This document shows, in pieces, positions 3,648 through 15,962 of a DNA stretch of 64,000 bases. This stretch comes from Marinitoga aeolica (GTDB lineage: Bacteria; Thermotogota; Thermotogae; Petrotogales; Petrotogaceae), in contig NZ_CP069362.1 in assembly GCF_029910535.1 (NCBI RefSeq), positions 682,001 through 746,000 of the forward strand, written 5' to 3'. Numbering within the stretch: the stretch's first letter is position 1; the number at the start of each line of letters is the position of its first letter. The notes under the pieces were generated by a model. That model saw only the letters and a list, made by a program, of their open reading frames with translations. It did no database searches and was not told where the DNA came from. A program made the translations under genes and the position numbers.

Positions 3648-3723
3648 CGGAGCGTAGCGCAGATGGTAGCGCGCCGGTCTTGGGAACCGGAGGTCGCTGG
3701 TTCGATCCCAGTCGCTCCGACCA
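3648..3723 (+). tRNA. tRNA-Pro (anticodon TGG)
   Basis: Acceptor stem CGGAGCG/CGCTCCG, anticodon stem CCGGT/ACCGG with loop CTTGGGA, and T-loop TTCGATC. CCA is encoded (3721-3723). First of four tandem tRNAs. Confidence 0.97.
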
Positions 3724-3743
3724 GAAGGTGGCGACCTTTAAGT

Positions 3744-3819
3744 GCGGCTGTAGTTCAATTGGTAGAACACTGGCCTTCCAAGCCAGGGGTTGCGAGTTCG
3801 AGTCTCGTCGGCCGCTCCA
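3744..3819 (+). tRNA. tRNA-Gly (anticodon TCC)
   Basis: Acceptor stem GCGGCTG/CGGCCGC with one G-T pair, anticodon stem CTGGC/GCCAG with loop CTTCCAA, T-loop TTCGAGT, and encoded CCA. The next tRNA starts at the adjoining base. Confidence 0.97.
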
Positions 3820-3896
3820 GCGCCCATAGCTCAATAGGATAGAGCATTGGATTTCTAATCCAAGGGTTGGGGGTTCGAGTCCCTCTGGGCGCGCCA
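3820..3896 (+). tRNA. tRNA-Arg (anticodon TCT)
   Basis: Acceptor stem GCGCCCA/TGGGCGC, anticodon stem TTGGA/TCCAA with loop TTTCTAA, T-loop TTCGAGT, and encoded CCA. It abuts tRNA-Gly with no spacer, so processing must cut both at the same junction. Confidence 0.97.
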
Positions 3897-3915
3897 CCTT
3901 TTTTTATTTAGCGAT

Positions 3916-3991
3916 GGTGGCATTAGTTCAGTGGTAGAACGCCTGACTGTGGATCAGGATGTCGTGGGTTCAAATCCCACATGCCACCCCA
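3916..3991 (+). tRNA. tRNA-His (anticodon GTG)
   Basis: Anticodon stem CCTGA/TCAGG with loop CTGTGGA. The extra G-1 of tRNA-His is encoded at 3916, opposite C73 at 3988. Acceptor stem GTGGCAT/ATGCCAC, with encoded CCA ending at 3991. Confidence 0.97.
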
Positions 3992-5461: not shown

Positions 5462-6193
5462 TCATATAAAAATAGCTTTGTATAAATTTATTTTTTTATT
5501 ATTAACCATACAATATGCTTCTAATGGTTCTACATTTACCTTTCTAAATATTTTATTTCCTATATTTTTTATTTCTTTTAAAGAATATCCAGGGCGTGTA
5601 TCCTTTAAATTTTCTAATATCTCAACATGTTCGTGTTTTAATATATCTATTATTATTACCTTTCCATTTTCTTTTAAAACTTTTTTCATACTTTTCAATG
5701 CCTTTTCCGGTTCTAAAAAATGATGGAATGCCAGAGTTGAAATAATTACGTCAAATTTTATAGAATTATGAGTATTATAATAATCATTTGAAACTTTTAT
5801 TGATTCCTCAATTCTCTCAGCTATTCCCCATACTGCTTTAATATTTCTTTTTTTTAATCTTTTTAACATACTTGGAGTCAAATCCAGGGCATACGGAAAA
5901 GTTTCTATATCTCTCTCATTCAGCTTTTTCATAATTTTTTCAGTAAAAAATCCCGATCCTGCTGCAACATCAAGAAATATAACTTTTTTTCTACCTAACT
6001 TTTCTGTTTCTGATACTATTTCTTCCACTATTATATTTATACATTTATCTTCTAAATATGATCTTACAATATCATCTCTCATAGGTGCTTCTTCTTCAAA
6101 ATGTTTTATCTGTTCAAGAAGTTCTTTTTTTGCCAATTCTTTATACCCTAATTTTTCTATAAGCCTTTCTACATCACTTAATGTTGGTATCAT
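5462..6193 (-). CDS. Class I SAM-dependent methyltransferase (YrrT-like position)
   Basis: 243 residues. SAM-binding motif I is FLDVAAGSGFFTEKIMKKL near residue 75-90. The ALDLTPSMLKRL segment carries the acidic residue expected to hold the ribose, and STLAFHHF is the post-motif III region found in UbiE/Methyltransf_11-type enzymes. The ATG overlaps the mccB stop (ATGA), so it is translationally coupled as the third gene of mccA-mccB-MTase. In Bacillus subtilis the equivalent cysteine-from-methionine operon also carries a methyltransferase, YrrT. The methyl acceptor is unknown. A plausible role is to produce S-adenosylhomocysteine for the pathway. Confidence 0.85.
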   Translation of the reverse strand: MIPTLSDVERLIEKLGYKELAKKELLEQIKHFEEEAPMRDDIVRSYLEDKCINIIVEEIVSETEKLGRKKVIFLDVAAGSGFFTEKIMKKLNERDIETFPYALDLTPSMLKRLKKRNIKAVWGIAERIEESIKVSNDYYNTHNSIKFDVIISTLAFHHFLEPEKALKSMKKVLKENGKVIIIDILKHEHVEILENLKDTRPGYSLKEIKNIGNKIFRKVNVEPLEAYCMVNNKKINLYKAIFI

Positions 6194-7347
6194 TCTTTCA
6201 CCGCCTTAAATCCTTTTTCAAAATCTTCTATTAAATCTTCTACTTCCTCTATTCCAACAGAGACTCTTATTAAAGAATCTTTTATTCCTGTTTTTTTTCT
6301 TTCTTCAACAGAAACAGCTGAATGAGTCATCAGTGAAGGTATTTCTATTAAAGATTCGACTCCTCCAAGACTTTCAGCAAGTGAAAAAATGGTTAATTTT
6401 TCCACAAACTTTTTTGCACTTTCTAAATCACCTTTTATTTCAAATGAGAGCATCCCTCCAAATCCTCTCATCTGTTTTTTAGCCAACATATGTTGCGGAT
6501 GAGATTCCAATCCAGGATAATATACTTTTTCAACATATGGGTGATTCTCTAAGTATTCTGCAATAATCGATGCATTTTTTGCATGTCGTTCCATTCTAAT
6601 AGATAAAGTCTTTATTCCACGCATAACCAACCATGAATTAAATGGTGACAGTATAGCTCCTATTGAATTCTGATGAAATTTTATTTTTTCATACAATAAA
6701 TCAGAATTCAACATTACTGCTCCGCCAACAACATCTGAATGACCGTTGATATACTTTGTAATACTGTGTAATACTATATCTGCTCCAAGATCTAGTGGGT
6801 TTTGGAAATATGGACTGGCAAACGTATTGTCGACCACAACAATCAAATTTTTTTCTTTAGATAGTATAGAAATTTCTTTAATATCAGCAAGTTTTAATAA
6901 AGGATTTGTCGGTGTTTCAATCCATATCATTTTTGTATTACTTTTTATTGCTTTTTTTATATTTTCTATTTCTCTAAAATCTACATAACTCACTTCAATA
7001 CCAAAATGATTTAAAACTTTGCTAAATAATCTTCGAGTTCCTCCGTATAAATCATCAAATGCTATAATATGTTCTCCTTGCTTTAATAATGACAAAATCA
7101 CAGTAGTTTCCGCTGCTAATCCAGAGGAAAAAGCAAGACCATATTTTGCATTTTCAAGAGTGGCTAATTTTTTTTCCAAACTGTTTCTTGTTGGATTTCC
7201 GCTTCTTGAATATACATATCCTTCTTCCACCTCATCAAGTGATTGTTTTGCAAAAGTCGTTGATAAATGTATAGGATAAATTGCGTCACCATATTCTACA
7301 TCTTTTGGATTTTCTCCAACATGTATAGATTTTGTTGTAAATTTCAC
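6190..7347 (-). CDS. mccB: Cystathionine gamma-lyase / gamma-synthase family PLP enzyme (MccB-like)
   Basis: 385 residues of the Cys/Met-metabolism PLP family (fold type I). Visible are the N-terminal TKSIHVGENPKDVEYGDAIYPI, the active-site YSRSGNPTRNSLEKKLATLE, the PLP-phosphate SSGLAAETTVILSLL and the Schiff-base lysine in LHSITKYINGHSDVVGG near residue 198. The start is GTG, coupled to the mccA stop (GTGA). Family members split cystathionine to cysteine or make it from O-acyl-homoserine. Pairing with a cystathionine beta-synthase and AhcY favours the lyase direction (homocysteine to cysteine). The direction cannot be proved from sequence. Confidence 0.9.
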   Translation of the reverse strand: MKFTTKSIHVGENPKDVEYGDAIYPIHLSTTFAKQSLDEVEEGYVYSRSGNPTRNSLEKKLATLENAKYGLAFSSGLAAETTVILSLLKQGEHIIAFDDLYGGTRRLFSKVLNHFGIEVSYVDFREIENIKKAIKSNTKMIWIETPTNPLLKLADIKEISILSKEKNLIVVVDNTFASPYFQNPLDLGADIVLHSITKYINGHSDVVGGAVMLNSDLLYEKIKFHQNSIGAILSPFNSWLVMRGIKTLSIRMERHAKNASIIAEYLENHPYVEKVYYPGLESHPQHMLAKKQMRGFGGMLSFEIKGDLESAKKFVEKLTIFSLAESLGGVESLIEIPSLMTHSAVSVEERKKTGIKDSLIRVSVGIEEVEDLIEDFEKGFKAVKE

Positions 7348-8501
7348 TTTAACACCTCCAATATTTTTTCATCATCAAGTTCAAAACCTTTTTCAATCAA
7401 CCAACTATCATTAAAAATTTTTGTCAAATAATTTCTTCCTCCATCCGGAAAAATTATTGCAATCTTTTTATTTTTTATCTCTCTTTTTTTAAGATATTTT
7501 ATCGCTCCAAATAATGCTGCTCCAGAAGAGCCACCAACCAATATACCTTCTCTTTTAGCTAAAAATCTTGTCATAGAAAATGATTCTTGATCACTTACGA
7601 CGATCATATCATCTATCAAATCAAGCTCTATTGTTTCTGGAATTATATCTTCTCCAATTCCCTCGACGAAATATGATTTTGCTTTCTTTAATGCCTTTTC
7701 AAAACTCATACCTTTTTTCACAAAATTATATACAGATCCAACAGGATCAATTCCTATTATTTTTGTATTTCCTTTTTCTTTAAAATATTTTGAAATACCT
7801 GTTATTGTACCTCCTGTACCTGCACCAACAAAAATATAATCTAAAATTCCATTAAATTGGTTCCATAATTCTGGAGCTGTTATATTATAATGAGATTCCG
7901 GGTTATATTTATTAAAATATTGATTAGGGATATACGCATATATGTTTGGTTTAATATTTTGAGTCAGTATAGATTTTAATTCATTTAATTTATTACTATT
8001 CACCAGAGTCTGTACATAATTAACTAATTTTTCTATTTCATCATATTTAAGTTTTTTATTTTCTTTCCAGATTAATTTTGCTATAACTTCTGAAACTTTA
8101 TAATACGAATTTGGATTATCCGGTTTTACTTCAGTTGGTGTTCTCACAACAAATGCTCCATATGCTTTTAATAGCAATTCTTTTTCAATGCTTATTTTTG
8201 AAGGCATTGTAAAAATTAACTTATTTCCTTTTTTAGTACCATAAAGTGCTAACCCAACCCCTGTATTTCCAGATGTAGGCTCCACAATTATAGTATCTTC
8301 ATTAATTTTACCCTTCTCATTAGCTCTTTCTAACAAATAAACTCCCATTCTATCTTTTATACTTCCTCCAGGATTTAAATATTCTACTTTTGCATATAAT
8401 TCATTATTTATATTAAAATAAGATTCAATTTTATTTAATCTTAAAATCGGTGTATTTCCTATCATTTCAAAAACATTATTGCAAATTTTTTCTTTTCCCA
8501 T
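7344..8501 (-). CDS. mccA: Cystathionine beta-synthase / cysteine synthase family enzyme (MccA-like) with an insertion
   Basis: 385 residues, fold type II PLP enzyme. The PLP lysine is K49 in GGSIKDRMG, the substrate loop is EPTSGNTGVGLA (residues 74-85), and the phosphate-binding glycine loop is VGAGTGGTITG. The downstream SESHYN-type region resembles cystathionine beta-synthases rather than plain cysteine synthases. Residues about 145-185 are an extra Lys-rich helical insertion not present in typical 305-330-residue relatives. The start is ATG at 8501, eight bases after GGAGG, not the GTG just upstream. First gene of a coupled three-gene operon with its own promoter. Confidence 0.9.
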   Translation of the reverse strand: MGKEKICNNVFEMIGNTPILRLNKIESYFNINNELYAKVEYLNPGGSIKDRMGVYLLERANEKGKINEDTIIVEPTSGNTGVGLALYGTKKGNKLIFTMPSKISIEKELLLKAYGAFVVRTPTEVKPDNPNSYYKVSEVIAKLIWKENKKLKYDEIEKLVNYVQTLVNSNKLNELKSILTQNIKPNIYAYIPNQYFNKYNPESHYNITAPELWNQFNGILDYIFVGAGTGGTITGISKYFKEKGNTKIIGIDPVGSVYNFVKKGMSFEKALKKAKSYFVEGIGEDIIPETIELDLIDDMIVVSDQESFSMTRFLAKREGILVGGSSGAALFGAIKYLKKREIKNKKIAIIFPDGGRNYLTKIFNDSWLIEKGFELDDEKILEVLK

Positions 8502-8539
8502 CACATTATCCTCCTTGTTATTTTTTTAACTTTCTAATT

Positions 8540-8748: not shown

Positions 8749-8779
8749 AAATAACTGCATCCAACTGGATGCAGTTATT
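8749..8779 (-). terminator. Terminator after metI
   Basis: A stem AATAACTGCATCC/GGATGCAGTTATT begins inside the metI stop codon and runs into TTTTA on the minus strand. It ends the metQNI transcript. Confidence 0.8.
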
Positions 8780-9425
8780 GATTTATATCTATTATCTTTT
8801 CAATTTTCATTCCTACAAATTGTATTATCTGAGTAATTAAAATTAAAATAATTAAATCATACATTAAAATATCAAATCTAAACCTTTGATATCCATAATT
8901 TATTGCCATAGCCCCTAATCCACCTGCTCCAACCGCACCTGCTATGGCAGTATAAGTTATAAGATTTATTAACAATAAAGTTATATTAGCAACTATTTTC
9001 GGCAATGTTTCTGGAATAAGAATTTTCACTATAAACTCAAAATTATTCATACCCAATGTATGTGCAGTATCAATCATTTCTTTCGGTAATGAATTAAAAG
9101 TACTTTCACTTAATCTTGCCATAAAGGGTATAGCGGCAATAGTTAAAGATACTATTGCTGACTTAGGACCAATTATTGTTCCTACTATTAATTTTGTTAA
9201 TGGTATAATCAAAACAATTAATATAATAAAAGGTATAGATCGAAATATGTTTATAATTACATCAAAGATCCTATATATAACTTTTGATATTTTAAGTTGA
9301 CTAATGGATGTTAAATATAGTATTATCCCTAAGGGAATTCCAAAAATAACACTTAAAAAACCAGAAAAAAATGTCATATATACTGTTTCTAATGTTGCTT
9401 TAATTAATTCATTTAAAATATTCAA
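8775..9425 (-). CDS. metI: Methionine ABC transporter permease MetI
   Basis: 216 residues, five predicted membrane segments, normal length. The coupling-loop motif for the ATPase is FIVKILIPETLPKI near residue 145. The IAGAVGAGGLGAMAINYGYQRF end is typical of MetI proteins. The start is a TTG overlapping the metN stop codon (TTGA), with GGAGG ten bases upstream. Last gene of metQ-metN-metI, followed by a terminator. Works with MetN and MetQ to import methionine across the cytoplasmic membrane. Confidence 0.95.
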   Translation of the reverse strand: MNILNELIKATLETVYMTFFSGFLSVIFGIPLGIILYLTSISQLKISKVIYRIFDVIINIFRSIPFIILIVLIIPLTKLIVGTIIGPKSAIVSLTIAAIPFMARLSESTFNSLPKEMIDTAHTLGMNNFEFIVKILIPETLPKIVANITLLLINLITYTAIAGAVGAGGLGAMAINYGYQRFRFDILMYDLIILILITQIIQFVGMKIEKIIDINQ

Positions 9426-10396
9426 AGTCTTAGCACCTCCAAAGCATAAACATATTCTCTTAAATCATTTATAAACTCACTTGTTTTTTCTCCTTCTATT
9501 TCCAAAATTAGTTTACCAAAAGGTGCATTTTTGAAATCTTCTATCTTTCCATATAATATGTTAAATATAATGTCATATTTTTTAGAAATTTTATTTAATA
9601 TGGGTTTTCCAACACTTTCACCATAAAAAATAACTTTTATTATCTTTCCATTTTTAAATTTTAACTTACTATAATTATAATTGATATCTTTATAAAATTC
9701 TTTATTTAATTCTTCTTCAAATTCAGAAAAAAATCTATAAACTTCACCAAAATAATGAACTTTACCATTTTTTAAATATAAAATTTTATCGCAAATTCTC
9801 TTTATTACATCCATCTCATGCGTTACTATAATTGTTGAAATTTTCATATCTTGGTTTATTTTTAATATTAATTCAAGAATTTTTTCGGTAGTTTTAGGAT
9901 CAAGTGCCGATGTTGGTTCATCTAAAAATAAAATATCGGGATTGGAAACTATTGCCCTTGCAATTGAAACTCTCTGTTTTTCACCACCCGACAAATGTGC
10001 TGGAAACGCATTTTTTCTATGTTCAAGCCCTACTTTCTTTATAATATTAGATACTTTTTCCTCTATCTCATTTTCCTTATTTAAAATTAAAGGCAATGAT
10101 ATATTTTCAAAAACTGTTTTTCTTGACAATAAATTATAATGTTGAAAAGCCACTCCTATTTTTTTTCTAATATTCCTTAATTCCTTCCTTGATAATTGAG
10201 TTATATTAATATCATTAAATAAAATTTCACCTTGAGGTTTTTCAAGCAAATTCAATGCTTTCAATAAAGAGGACTTCCCAGCACCGGAAAGTCCAATAAT
10301 TCCCAATATTTCACCTTTTTCTAATTTAAAACTTATATCTTTTAATACATAATTTTTCCCATCATATGTAAGATTTAAATTCTTCACTTCAAGCAA
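9422..10396 (-). CDS. metN: Methionine ABC transporter ATP-binding protein MetN
   Basis: 324 residues. Walker A is GLSGAGKSS, the Q-loop is AFQHYNLL, the signature is LSGGEKQR, Walker B is ILFLDEPTSALD and the switch histidine is VTHEMD. The C-terminal 80 residues are a NIL domain, which binds methionine and mediates trans-inhibition in characterised MetN proteins. The TTG at 10396 is preferred over the GTG at 10405, because the latter lies one base after the Shine-Dalgarno GGAG. Co-transcribed with metQ (22-base gap). Confidence 0.95.
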   Translation of the reverse strand: MLEVKNLNLTYDGKNYVLKDISFKLEKGEILGIIGLSGAGKSSLLKALNLLEKPQGEILFNDINITQLSRKELRNIRKKIGVAFQHYNLLSRKTVFENISLPLILNKENEIEEKVSNIIKKVGLEHRKNAFPAHLSGGEKQRVSIARAIVSNPDILFLDEPTSALDPKTTEKILELILKINQDMKISTIIVTHEMDVIKRICDKILYLKNGKVHYFGEVYRFFSEFEEELNKEFYKDINYNYSKLKFKNGKIIKVIFYGESVGKPILNKISKKYDIIFNILYGKIEDFKNAPFGKLILEIEGEKTSEFINDLREYVYALEVLRL

Positions 10397-10418
10397 TTTA
10401 TTCACTCTCCTTAAAAAG

Positions 10419-11210
10419 TTAAAAAGTTGGAACTACAGCTCCTTTGTATTTTTCAATTATAAAGTTTTTAACCTTTTCAGTTTGAAGTATTGAAATTAAT
10501 TCTTTAATTATTTCATTATCTTCATTTTTCTTTTTTACAGCTATTATATTTGCATATGGTGAATTGGCATTTTCTATAAATATTGCATCTTTTAATGGAT
10601 TTAATCCATTTTCTATTGCATAATTTGTATTTATTACAGCTCCAACCACAGAAGCATCTTCCTTATATGTTCTTGGCAAATATGCAGCATCCAATTCAAC
10701 AAAAGTCAAATTATACTTATTTTCTTCGATATCATTAATAGTAACTTTTAAAGAATTTGTATTTTTTAACTTTATTAATCCATTTTCTTGTAATAACAAT
10801 AATGCTCTTCCTTCATTTGTTGCATCATTTGGAATTACTACTTTATCACCGGATTTAAATTCTTTTATTGGTTTTTTAGAATAAAATCCCATAGGTTCAA
10901 CATGGATTTTTGCAATTGATATTAAATCTTTATATCCTTTGTTTTTTGAAAATTCTTCTAAATAGGGTATATGTTGAAAATAATTCGCATCAATTTGTTC
11001 TTCTTCCAAAGCTATATTTGGCTGTACATAATCATTAAAAATAACAATTTCCAATTTATACCCTGTCTTTTTTTCAAAATCGTCCTTAACAAATTCAAGA
11101 ATTTCCGCGTGAGGAACAGCTGTTGCACCAATTTTTAACACCTTTTCTTCCTTTGAACAACCAAAAAGCACTAATACTAACAATAGTATGAAAATACCTA
11201 ACTTTTTCAC
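10419..11210 (-). CDS. metQ: Methionine-binding lipoprotein MetQ
   Basis: 263 residues of the NlpA/MetQ family. A lipoprotein signal with lipobox LFGC puts the modified cysteine near residue 18. The mature protein opens with the LKIGATAVPHAEILEFVKDD strand-helix typical of MetQ. Binding-protein landmarks include DANYFQHIPYLEEF and PNDATNEGRALLLL. The start is GTG at 11210, eight bases after GGAGG. First structural gene of the operon and preceded by a long regulated leader (11237-11436), which makes methionine the most likely ligand. Confidence 0.93.
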   Translation of the reverse strand: MKKLGIFILLLVLVLFGCSKEEKVLKIGATAVPHAEILEFVKDDFEKKTGYKLEIVIFNDYVQPNIALEEEQIDANYFQHIPYLEEFSKNKGYKDLISIAKIHVEPMGFYSKKPIKEFKSGDKVVIPNDATNEGRALLLLQENGLIKLKNTNSLKVTINDIEENKYNLTFVELDAAYLPRTYKEDASVVGAVINTNYAIENGLNPLKDAIFIENANSPYANIIAVKKKNEDNEIIKELISILQTEKVKNFIIEKYKGAVVPTF

Positions 11211-11236
11211 TACAAACACCTCCTGATAAAATTTTT

Positions 11237-11270
11237 AAAAAAATAAGGCCGGTTATTTTCATAACCGGCC
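11237..11270 (-). terminator. Attenuator terminator in the metQ leader
   Basis: A perfect 10-bp stem GGCCGGTTAT (11261-11270) / ATAACCGGCC (11247-11256) with loop GAAA, followed by TTATTTTTTT. It lies between the promoter and metQ, so it must be conditionally bypassed. Confidence 0.93.
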
Positions 11271-11342
11271 TTCTCAATTAATTCCACTCAGCACGAAAAC
11301 AGAGTGGCATTAATCTTCCTTAGAGAAGACCTTACATGCCAC
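11267..11342 (-). promoter_or_regulatory. Mutually exclusive antiterminator / anti-antiterminator hairpins of the metQ leader
   Basis: Fold A pairs GTGGCAT (11336-11342) with ATGCCAC (11304-11310) and, inside it, GGTCTTC (11325-11331) with GAAGATT (11312-11318). That leaves the terminator free. Fold B pairs CCACTC (11302-11307) with GAGTGG (11284-11289), nested in GGTCTTCTC (11323-11331) with GAGAAGGCC (11267-11275). Fold B uses the 5' arm of the terminator, so the two folds exclude each other. All pairings are seen in the sequence; the regulatory reading is inferred. Confidence 0.75.
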
Positions 11343-11392
11343 ATCATCATATGTACTTTATATAACCTTTCTAAATTTTTACTTAATTTCAT
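11288..11392 (-). CDS. Leader peptide with three consecutive Met codons (metQNI attenuation)
   Basis: A 34-codon ORF: ATG at 11392, TGA ending at 11288. A GGGTGAT ribosome site is spaced normally before the ATG. Residues 12-20 read KVHMMMWHV, so Met codons 15-17 (11342-11350) are in a row just before the first leader hairpin arm. The stop codon lies within the GAGTGG arm of the antiterminator. This is the arrangement of classical leader peptides such as TrpL and HisL, here in front of a methionine transporter. Too short for routine gene callers. Translation is inferred. Confidence 0.75.
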   Translation of the reverse strand: MKLSKNLERLYKVHMMMWHVRSSLRKINATLFSC

Positions 11393-11442
11393 AATATCAC
11401 CCGAATATAATTTTTTTGCATTCCAATTTATAATTTTTTTGT

Positions 11443-11472
11443 ATTCTAACATATATACTTTTTTATTGTCAA
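11443..11472 (-). promoter_or_regulatory. metQNI promoter
   Basis: Minus-strand TTGACA (11467-11472) and TAGAAT (11443-11448) with an 18-base spacer. Predicted transcription start is near 11436, giving a leader of about 225 bases before metQ. Confidence 0.8.
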
Positions 11473-15756: not shown

Positions 15757-15781
15757 CCATCTTCTTTTCGCGAGAAGATGG
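15757..15781 (-). promoter_or_regulatory. Hairpin between the cobalamin aptamer and btuF
   Basis: CCATCTTCT/AGAAGATGG, a 9-bp stem with a seven-base loop, follows the aptamer and precedes the AGGAGGG ribosome site. No T-run follows on the minus strand, so it is not a standard terminator. It may be part of a translational expression platform. Confidence 0.55.
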
Positions 15782-15788
15782 AACAAAT

Positions 15789-15940
15789 CCCTTTAAAGTA
15801 GGTCTCCCGGCTTGTGGTTCATCCTACTTCCAGCGCCTTCCCAGAGAAATGTTTCCAGTGGCTTAGTGCTGGTTTCGTCCCCACTCACGGTGGCGCGACC
15901 GCAACGGATTTTCACCGTTTTCCCTTACACTTTAAAGGAA
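15789..15940 (-). ncRNA. Cobalamin (adenosylcobalamin) riboswitch aptamer
   Basis: Minus-strand conserved blocks are all present in order: the GGTGAAAATCCG loop, GCCACTG, CTGGGAAGGCGC (B12 box), GATGAACCACAAGCCGGGA and GAGACCTACTT. The closing stem P1 pairs 15929-15940 with 15790-15801. It sits in the 5' UTR of btuFCD and identifies the transporter's substrate. Confidence 0.96.
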
Positions 15941-15962
15941 TTTTTATTTAATTGTCAGTGAT

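Follow-up and report, generated by a model that had tools for sequence, protein, structure and literature searches.

The metQNI operon in the 64,000-nucleotide stretch of DNA analysed here (the window) is preceded by a leader that is, with high probability, a ribosome-mediated transcription attenuator sensing charged methionine tRNA. We directly observed the anatomy of this leader, its conservation through concerted changes, in-frame starts for its open reading frame (ORF), a constant geometry and a consistent gene context. Ribosome stalling, the resulting change in termination and the Met-tRNA signal are inferences. In total, we identified 35 such leaders in eight families of the phylum (f1, f2, f4, f6, f7, f8, f9 and f11), located upstream of metQ or of homocysteine/methionine synthesis operons (ask, HcyBio/DUF39, UPF0280, metF).

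Anatomy of the metQNI leader and its genomic setting

The leader is on the minus strand and comprises, from 5´ to 3´, a promoter, a 34-codon ORF, a protector hairpin, an antiterminator pairing and a strong terminator (Table 1). The original prediction had named the promoter, ORF, ribosome binding site, Met codons, stems and terminator, and all were found on the minus strand where it had placed them. Within the ribosome binding site of the ORF, GGTGAT (about 11401-11396) is a 6-nt match to the anti-Shine-Dalgarno complement; metQ has its own ribosome binding site between the T tract of the leader and the metQ start codon.

Table 1. Features of the metQNI leader and operon, in window coordinates
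Feature	Position	Strand	Remarks
Sigma-A-type promoter	11443..11472	-	TTGACA (-35, 11472-11467), 18-nt spacer, TAGAAT (-10, 11448-11443); consensus match alone, predicted start site
Ribosome binding site of leader ORF	11396..11402	-	GGGTGAT; in frame with the Met run
Leader-peptide ORF	11288..11392	-	34 codons; ATG 11392, TGA 11290-11288; MKLSKNLERLYKVHMMMWHVRSSLRKINATLFSC, then stop
Three consecutive Met codons	11342..11350	-	Proposed sensor; kept in metQ leaders of 7 genera
Protector hairpin	11304..11342	-	GTGGCAT 11342-11336 / ATGCCAC 11310-11304, with inner GTCTTC/GAAGAT stem
Antiterminator 5´ arm	11323..11331	-	GGTCTTCTC; best of 19 in swap test
Antiterminator 3´ arm	11267..11275	-	GAGAAGGCC; overlaps terminator 5´ arm
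Inner hairpin	11284..11307	-	CCACTC/GAGTGG; read directly, seen in the window's genus
Perfect intrinsic terminator	11237..11272	-	AAGGCCGGTTAT 11272-11261, GAAA, ATAACCGGCCTT 11256-11245, then A and seven T
metQ	10419..11219	-	Substrate-binding lipoprotein (NlpA family); GTG start 11219; PF03180, 293 bits
metN	9422..10405	-	ABC ATPase, C-terminal NIL domain; PF00005 and PF09383
metI	8775..9425	-	ABC permease; PF00528

Downstream of the Met run come the protector 5´ arm and the antiterminator arm, followed by the protector 3´ arm, the stop codon and finally the terminator. The protector hairpin starts at the final base of the third Met codon, and ATGCCAC, the 3´ partner of GTGGCAT, is located 25 nt downstream. 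This hairpin sequesters the antiterminator 5´ arm, GGTCTTCTC, which is partly paired with GAAGAT inside it. The alternative partner, GAGAAGGCC, forms a duplex of -15.7 kcal/mol with GGTCTTCTC, and its final bases, GGCC, belong to the terminator 5´ arm. The CCACTC/GAGTGG hairpin would lengthen the antiterminator, and the leader stop codon is inside its GAGTGG arm (11289-11284). Mutually exclusive folds, as originally predicted, are therefore present, but not as a trp-type series: given that the antiterminator 5´ arm is contained in the protector hairpin, the foldings are nested and do not follow the 1:2, 2:3, 3:4 succession.

By anatomical criteria, the assignment of the window element to ribosome-mediated attenuators is supported, and its response to Met-tRNA is inferred. 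We propose that, when Met-tRNA is scarce, a ribosome on the leader would stall at the Met codons, where its front edge would cover the start of the protector, breaking this hairpin and freeing the antiterminator arm. The free arm could then pair with the terminator 5´ arm as it emerges, such that no terminator would form and the transporter would be transcribed. When Met-tRNA is ample, the ribosome would reach the stop codon and depart, the protector would fold and hold the antiterminator arm, and transcription would be predicted to end at the terminator. A ribosome usually covers about 12 nt beyond its A site, and from this footprint we infer that a ribosome whose A site holds a Met codon would cover the protector 5´ arm and spare the antiterminator arm. 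Once at the stop codon, a ribosome would cover GAGTGG but not the antiterminator arm in full. It is plausible, though not shown, that a ribosome in this position favours termination, and its role there remains uncertain.

The window leader folds more stably than its dinucleotide shuffles (z -3.6), and only 23 of 2000 shuffles (~1%) reach its density of Met codons. A DNA search of the whole window genome found the leader to be single-copy, and further near matches to the Met-run motif in that genome were all in unrelated sequence.

Several neighbouring features were also noted. Downstream of metI, on the minus strand at 5462-8504, are genes resembling a PLP-dependent cysteine synthase, a PLP enzyme of Cys/Met metabolism and a SAM methyltransferase, which together look like a pathway for conversion of methionine to cysteine; no Met leader is present in the 270-nt gap preceding them. 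A cobalamin riboswitch precedes an ABC uptake operon (15780-15949, minus), and a TwoAYGGAY RNA and four tRNA genes are on the plus strand at 1204-1363 and 3648-3988, respectively. The window genome has no match to HcyBio, to homocysteine methyltransferase PF02574 or to MetE-type PF01717, so methionine is probably imported and the organism probably reliant on this uptake.

Leaders of the same design across the phylum

We collected metQ genes of the order and phylum and found similarly designed leaders 5´ of metQ in seven genera. The Met run reads HMMMWH, HMMMMWH or NMMMMWH in the window's genus, NMMMPWC in g4, HMCMPW in g8, NMMMC in g9, SMMMYGN or AMMMYGN in g12 (where a second metQ copy has MVMC), VMMMYRN in g13, and VMNMIMC in g15, which belongs to another family. 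The leader ORFs of close relatives differ by whole codons (three or four Met), such that the frame is preserved. Every metQ leader of the attenuator type retains Met codons (MMM, MMMM, MCM, MVM, MNMIM), every leader compared has an intrinsic terminator, and beyond the Met codons the peptides and stems share almost nothing across most genera. The Met run thus recurs 5´ of metQ amid unrelated flanking sequence. It is also kept 5´ of ask/HcyBio in other families.

This comparison bears directly on the original prediction, which would have been undermined if the Met codons were lost in related leaders while an aptamer was conserved. The opposite was found: the Met codons are kept, no aptamer is conserved, and while flanks, peptide and stems vary, the antiterminator and terminator arms vary together. 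A detector for a Met-rich ORF followed by a terminator, run on both strands of the window and of the loci collected by then (including 80 metQ-like loci of named genomes, mostly from other phyla), matched metQ leaders only. Among those 80 loci, the Met leader was not detected at the metQ relatives of other phyla, and no viral contigs with metQ were found. In one genome of the window's genus (G023:C9; L027 / L033), the leader is intact (93% identity) and metQ is split by a frameshift, which could be an assembly error.

To extend the comparison beyond metQ, we scanned 103 genomes of the phylum for ATGATGATG followed by T7 73-103 nt downstream. In genomes in which metQ had not been detected, this pattern scan found the same leader design 5´ of aspartokinase - HcyBio (DUF39) - UPF0280 - metF-like operons, whose gene names, other than HcyBio, were assigned by reading sequences. 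HcyBio (PF01837) is present in 35 of the 103 genomes, and DUF39 and COG2122 proteins have been shown to be required for homocysteine synthesis (PMC5764234). Leaders of these operons encode MMPMMMWCTD, NMMIMCG, MMMRWKAPG, SMMMCGDA, MMMRHTPP and, directly 5´ of HcyBio, NMIMCGYAP. In a family whose operons begin with a metH-like gene (metH-ask-HcyBio), we found VMIMCIHAP, AMIMRTDAP and AMIMCIYAP. One genome, G039, has two Met leaders, at metQ and at HcyBio, and there they constitute a small regulon. The leaders found with ATGATGATG were ascertained on Met, but the gene itself led us to the metQ leaders and to many of those at HcyBio.

Not all loci conform to this arrangement. HcyBio operons without a leader were also seen (L194, L198-L203, L208 and L213), with incomplete upstream sequence for some. 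One locus, L187 (G050:C2:4000-10000, about 420-620), has a Met leader and terminator, but the next 650 nt contain no methionine gene; an argS-like gene lies downstream of a tRNA-like stretch, and the leader looks orphaned. A Cys codon follows the Met run (MC) in, for example, L018, L031, L051, L193, L195, L212 and L221, a recurrence that could be due to a constraint from the stem or to joint sensing of Met and Cys.

Pairing, reading frame and competing explanations

The protector arms of distant leaders could not be aligned by MAFFT, and we therefore used a swap test that treats each leader separately. Across 19 divergent leaders, antiterminator arms paired with their own terminator arms at a mean of -16.6 kcal/mol, compared to -10.2 kcal/mol with the arms of other leaders, and none of 100,000 permutations was as good as the observed pairing. 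As a control, an equal-length stretch upstream of the Met run paired worse in 19 of 19 leaders. L018 and L195 have weak antiterminators in this test. The geometry is likewise constant: relative to the last Met codon, the protector starts at -2 to +6 nt and the antiterminator arm at +4 to +18 nt, and the leader stop codon is always at least 15 nt ahead of the terminator. A start codon with a ribosome binding site (5 or more matching nt) and an uninterrupted frame to the Met run was present in the Met frame of 26 of the 35 leaders and in neither of the other two frames of any leader (0/35); the 5-nt Shine-Dalgarno match is missing in the remaining 9. Per leader, the Met density was reached by 0.2 to 3.7% of shuffles, and the region from the Met run to the terminator exceeds its shuffles in stability (combined p 4e-9).

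Attempts to model the switch by folding were less informative. Blocking only the first 8 nt past the Met run gave an energy loss that is weak support (combined p 5e-4, with few leaders individually significant). In equilibrium folding, the terminator and antiterminator had nearly equal probabilities in stalled and free RNA; without the terminator 3´ arm the antiterminator prevails, and with this arm the terminator is mostly favoured. The outcome is thus largely set by the presence of the 3´ arm, which renders equilibrium comparisons of stalled and free RNA uninformative, and the absence of a difference between the two states means that the switch must be kinetic, depending on the order of folding during transcription.

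We considered whether the RNA itself could bind SAM, methionine or uncharged tRNA-Met, with the ORF being incidental. SAM riboswitches or Met T-boxes often control methionine transporters, and SAM-I is present at the metQNI operon in sister genera. We nevertheless regard this as very improbable and rejected it, because Rfam gave no aptamer or T-box at threshold in the window leader, with nothing relevant even at a permissive E-value, and because the Met codons and reading frame are conserved between genera while the primary sequence is not; SAM-I is also absent from the entire window genome. A related possibility is that the nascent peptide, while in the exit tunnel, responds to free methionine or SAM, as in TnaC or plant CGS1. 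Such an arrest leader would be compatible with an ORF that has a conserved core and whose stop codon is at a roughly fixed distance ahead of the terminator. However, the Met run is all that the peptides have in common across genera; the preceding residues are completely different, and those that follow (W, PW, Y, C, R) track the sequence of the protector stem. Without a conserved arrest peptide, we rejected this reading as well and see very little chance that it is correct.

Another idea is that attenuation by leader translation operates as we propose, with a signal that includes cysteine or a general slow-down of translation. Cys often adjoins the Met run (many leaders have MIMC, MMMC, MVMC, MCM or MWMC), the genes after metQNI have the appearance of methionine-to-cysteine conversion, and a putative Streptomyces leader likewise mixes Met and Cys. 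Still, the window leader has no Cys near its Met run, Trp, Tyr or Arg takes that place in many leaders, and Met is the sole residue always present, so that a broader signal appears very unlikely. Finally, about 1% of the shuffles of a single leader contain a short ORF with three Met codons, and this alone might be reconciled with a plain intergenic terminator that has chance neighbours and no regulatory role. Recurrence in eight families, matched antiterminator arms and frame-specific start sites leave this explanation with almost no credibility; the swap and frame tests exclude it, unless those tests are artefacts. Attenuation through Met-tRNA therefore remains the reading that we prefer.

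Precedents, SAM-I at the same operons and implications

Known methionine controls comprise SAM riboswitches, Met T-boxes and MetJ. The Met leaders share several features with the trp, his, leu, thr, phe and ilv attenuators of Proteobacteria: a short leader is translated and contains successive codons for the amino acid that the operon supplies, the hairpins exclude one another, and the stop codon lies ahead of an intrinsic terminator. In contrast to those trp-type attenuators, the window leader uses the Met codon, is found in a different phylum and has no Rfam model match, and its antiterminator arm is in the 5´ arm and loop of the protector instead of the 3´ arm of the 1:2 hairpin. A Met T-box also senses the charging of methionine tRNA and chooses between terminator and antiterminator, but it binds uncharged tRNA directly, making an ORF unnecessary, and no T-box match was found in the window leader.

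According to the original prediction, no leader-peptide control of a methionine transporter has been described in this phylum. This holds in the open-licence literature searched, but could not be said of bacteria in general, since a putative leader peptide, metL (MSTTSDRTPATEATTTPGARCMCRRMCAF), has been described before metNIQ of Streptomyces lividans (PMC8079986). The proposal rests on inspection of a single genome, and its authors did not identify a typical terminator (PMC8079986). As with the window leader, metL is 5´ of a methionine ABC importer; it differs in having dispersed Met codons mixed with Cys and a leaderless transcript (PMC8079986), and the two have no evident sequence resemblance. 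It was the only precedent for a Met leader peptide or attenuator that we found in the open-licence literature, and others elsewhere are not excluded. Earlier surveys reported attenuators for other amino acids (PMC3766115, PMC1262725, PMC2965389), and leader peptides are not mentioned in a survey of how Proteobacteria regulate methionine (PMC4239095). Thus, while leader-peptide attenuation is already known, the Met leaders are distinguished by the codon that is sensed, by the nesting of their hairpins and by their exchange or stacking with SAM-I.

This last feature is apparent from the distribution of SAM-I (S box, RF00162), which was found in 12 of the 103 genomes, all within the window's family, and not in the window's genus. 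Like the Met leaders, SAM-I precedes metQNI and ask-HcyBio operons and is followed by a terminator; unlike them, it binds SAM directly and does not need translation. SAM-I is 5´ of metQ in g2, g3 and g6, where the Met leader is missing, and 5´ of ask-HcyBio in g5, g7 and one g8 genome. At metQ loci of other phyla, 8 of 10 checked against Rfam carry SAM-I. In L215 (G035:C1:470100-472600, minus; reverse-strand offsets about 820-1137), SAM-I and a terminator are followed by a Met leader (NMNMWMCGIT) and a second terminator before ask, a tandem that could possibly serve as a two-input leader. L216 (G028:C1:114000-116400, 640-1060) has SAM-I and a second hairpin as in L215, with the Met codons replaced (VLIIGIT), an apparent decay or change in specificity of the second sensor. 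In g3 (L016, L009), the interval from SAM-I to metQ has ~100-nt repeated units containing GGGCGGCAGCCCTAAC within about 400 nt before metQ.

We lean slightly toward a model in which Met-codon attenuation is an old mechanism that governs methionine supply throughout the Thermotogota, through both uptake (metQNI) and synthesis (ask-HcyBio-UPF0280-metF), and that SAM-I replaced or joined in some Petrotogaceae, with L215 acting as a gate for SAM and charged Met-tRNA. We found no earlier description of a methionine-codon attenuator with complete anatomy in the open-licence literature. Across the phylum, the swapping of Met leaders with SAM-I at the same operons provides a natural comparison between sensing a product (SAM) and sensing charged tRNA. 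Many members of the Thermotogota are thermophiles. The Met-leader switch would be impossible without coupling of transcription and translation, and therefore offers a direct test of this coupling in Thermotogota.
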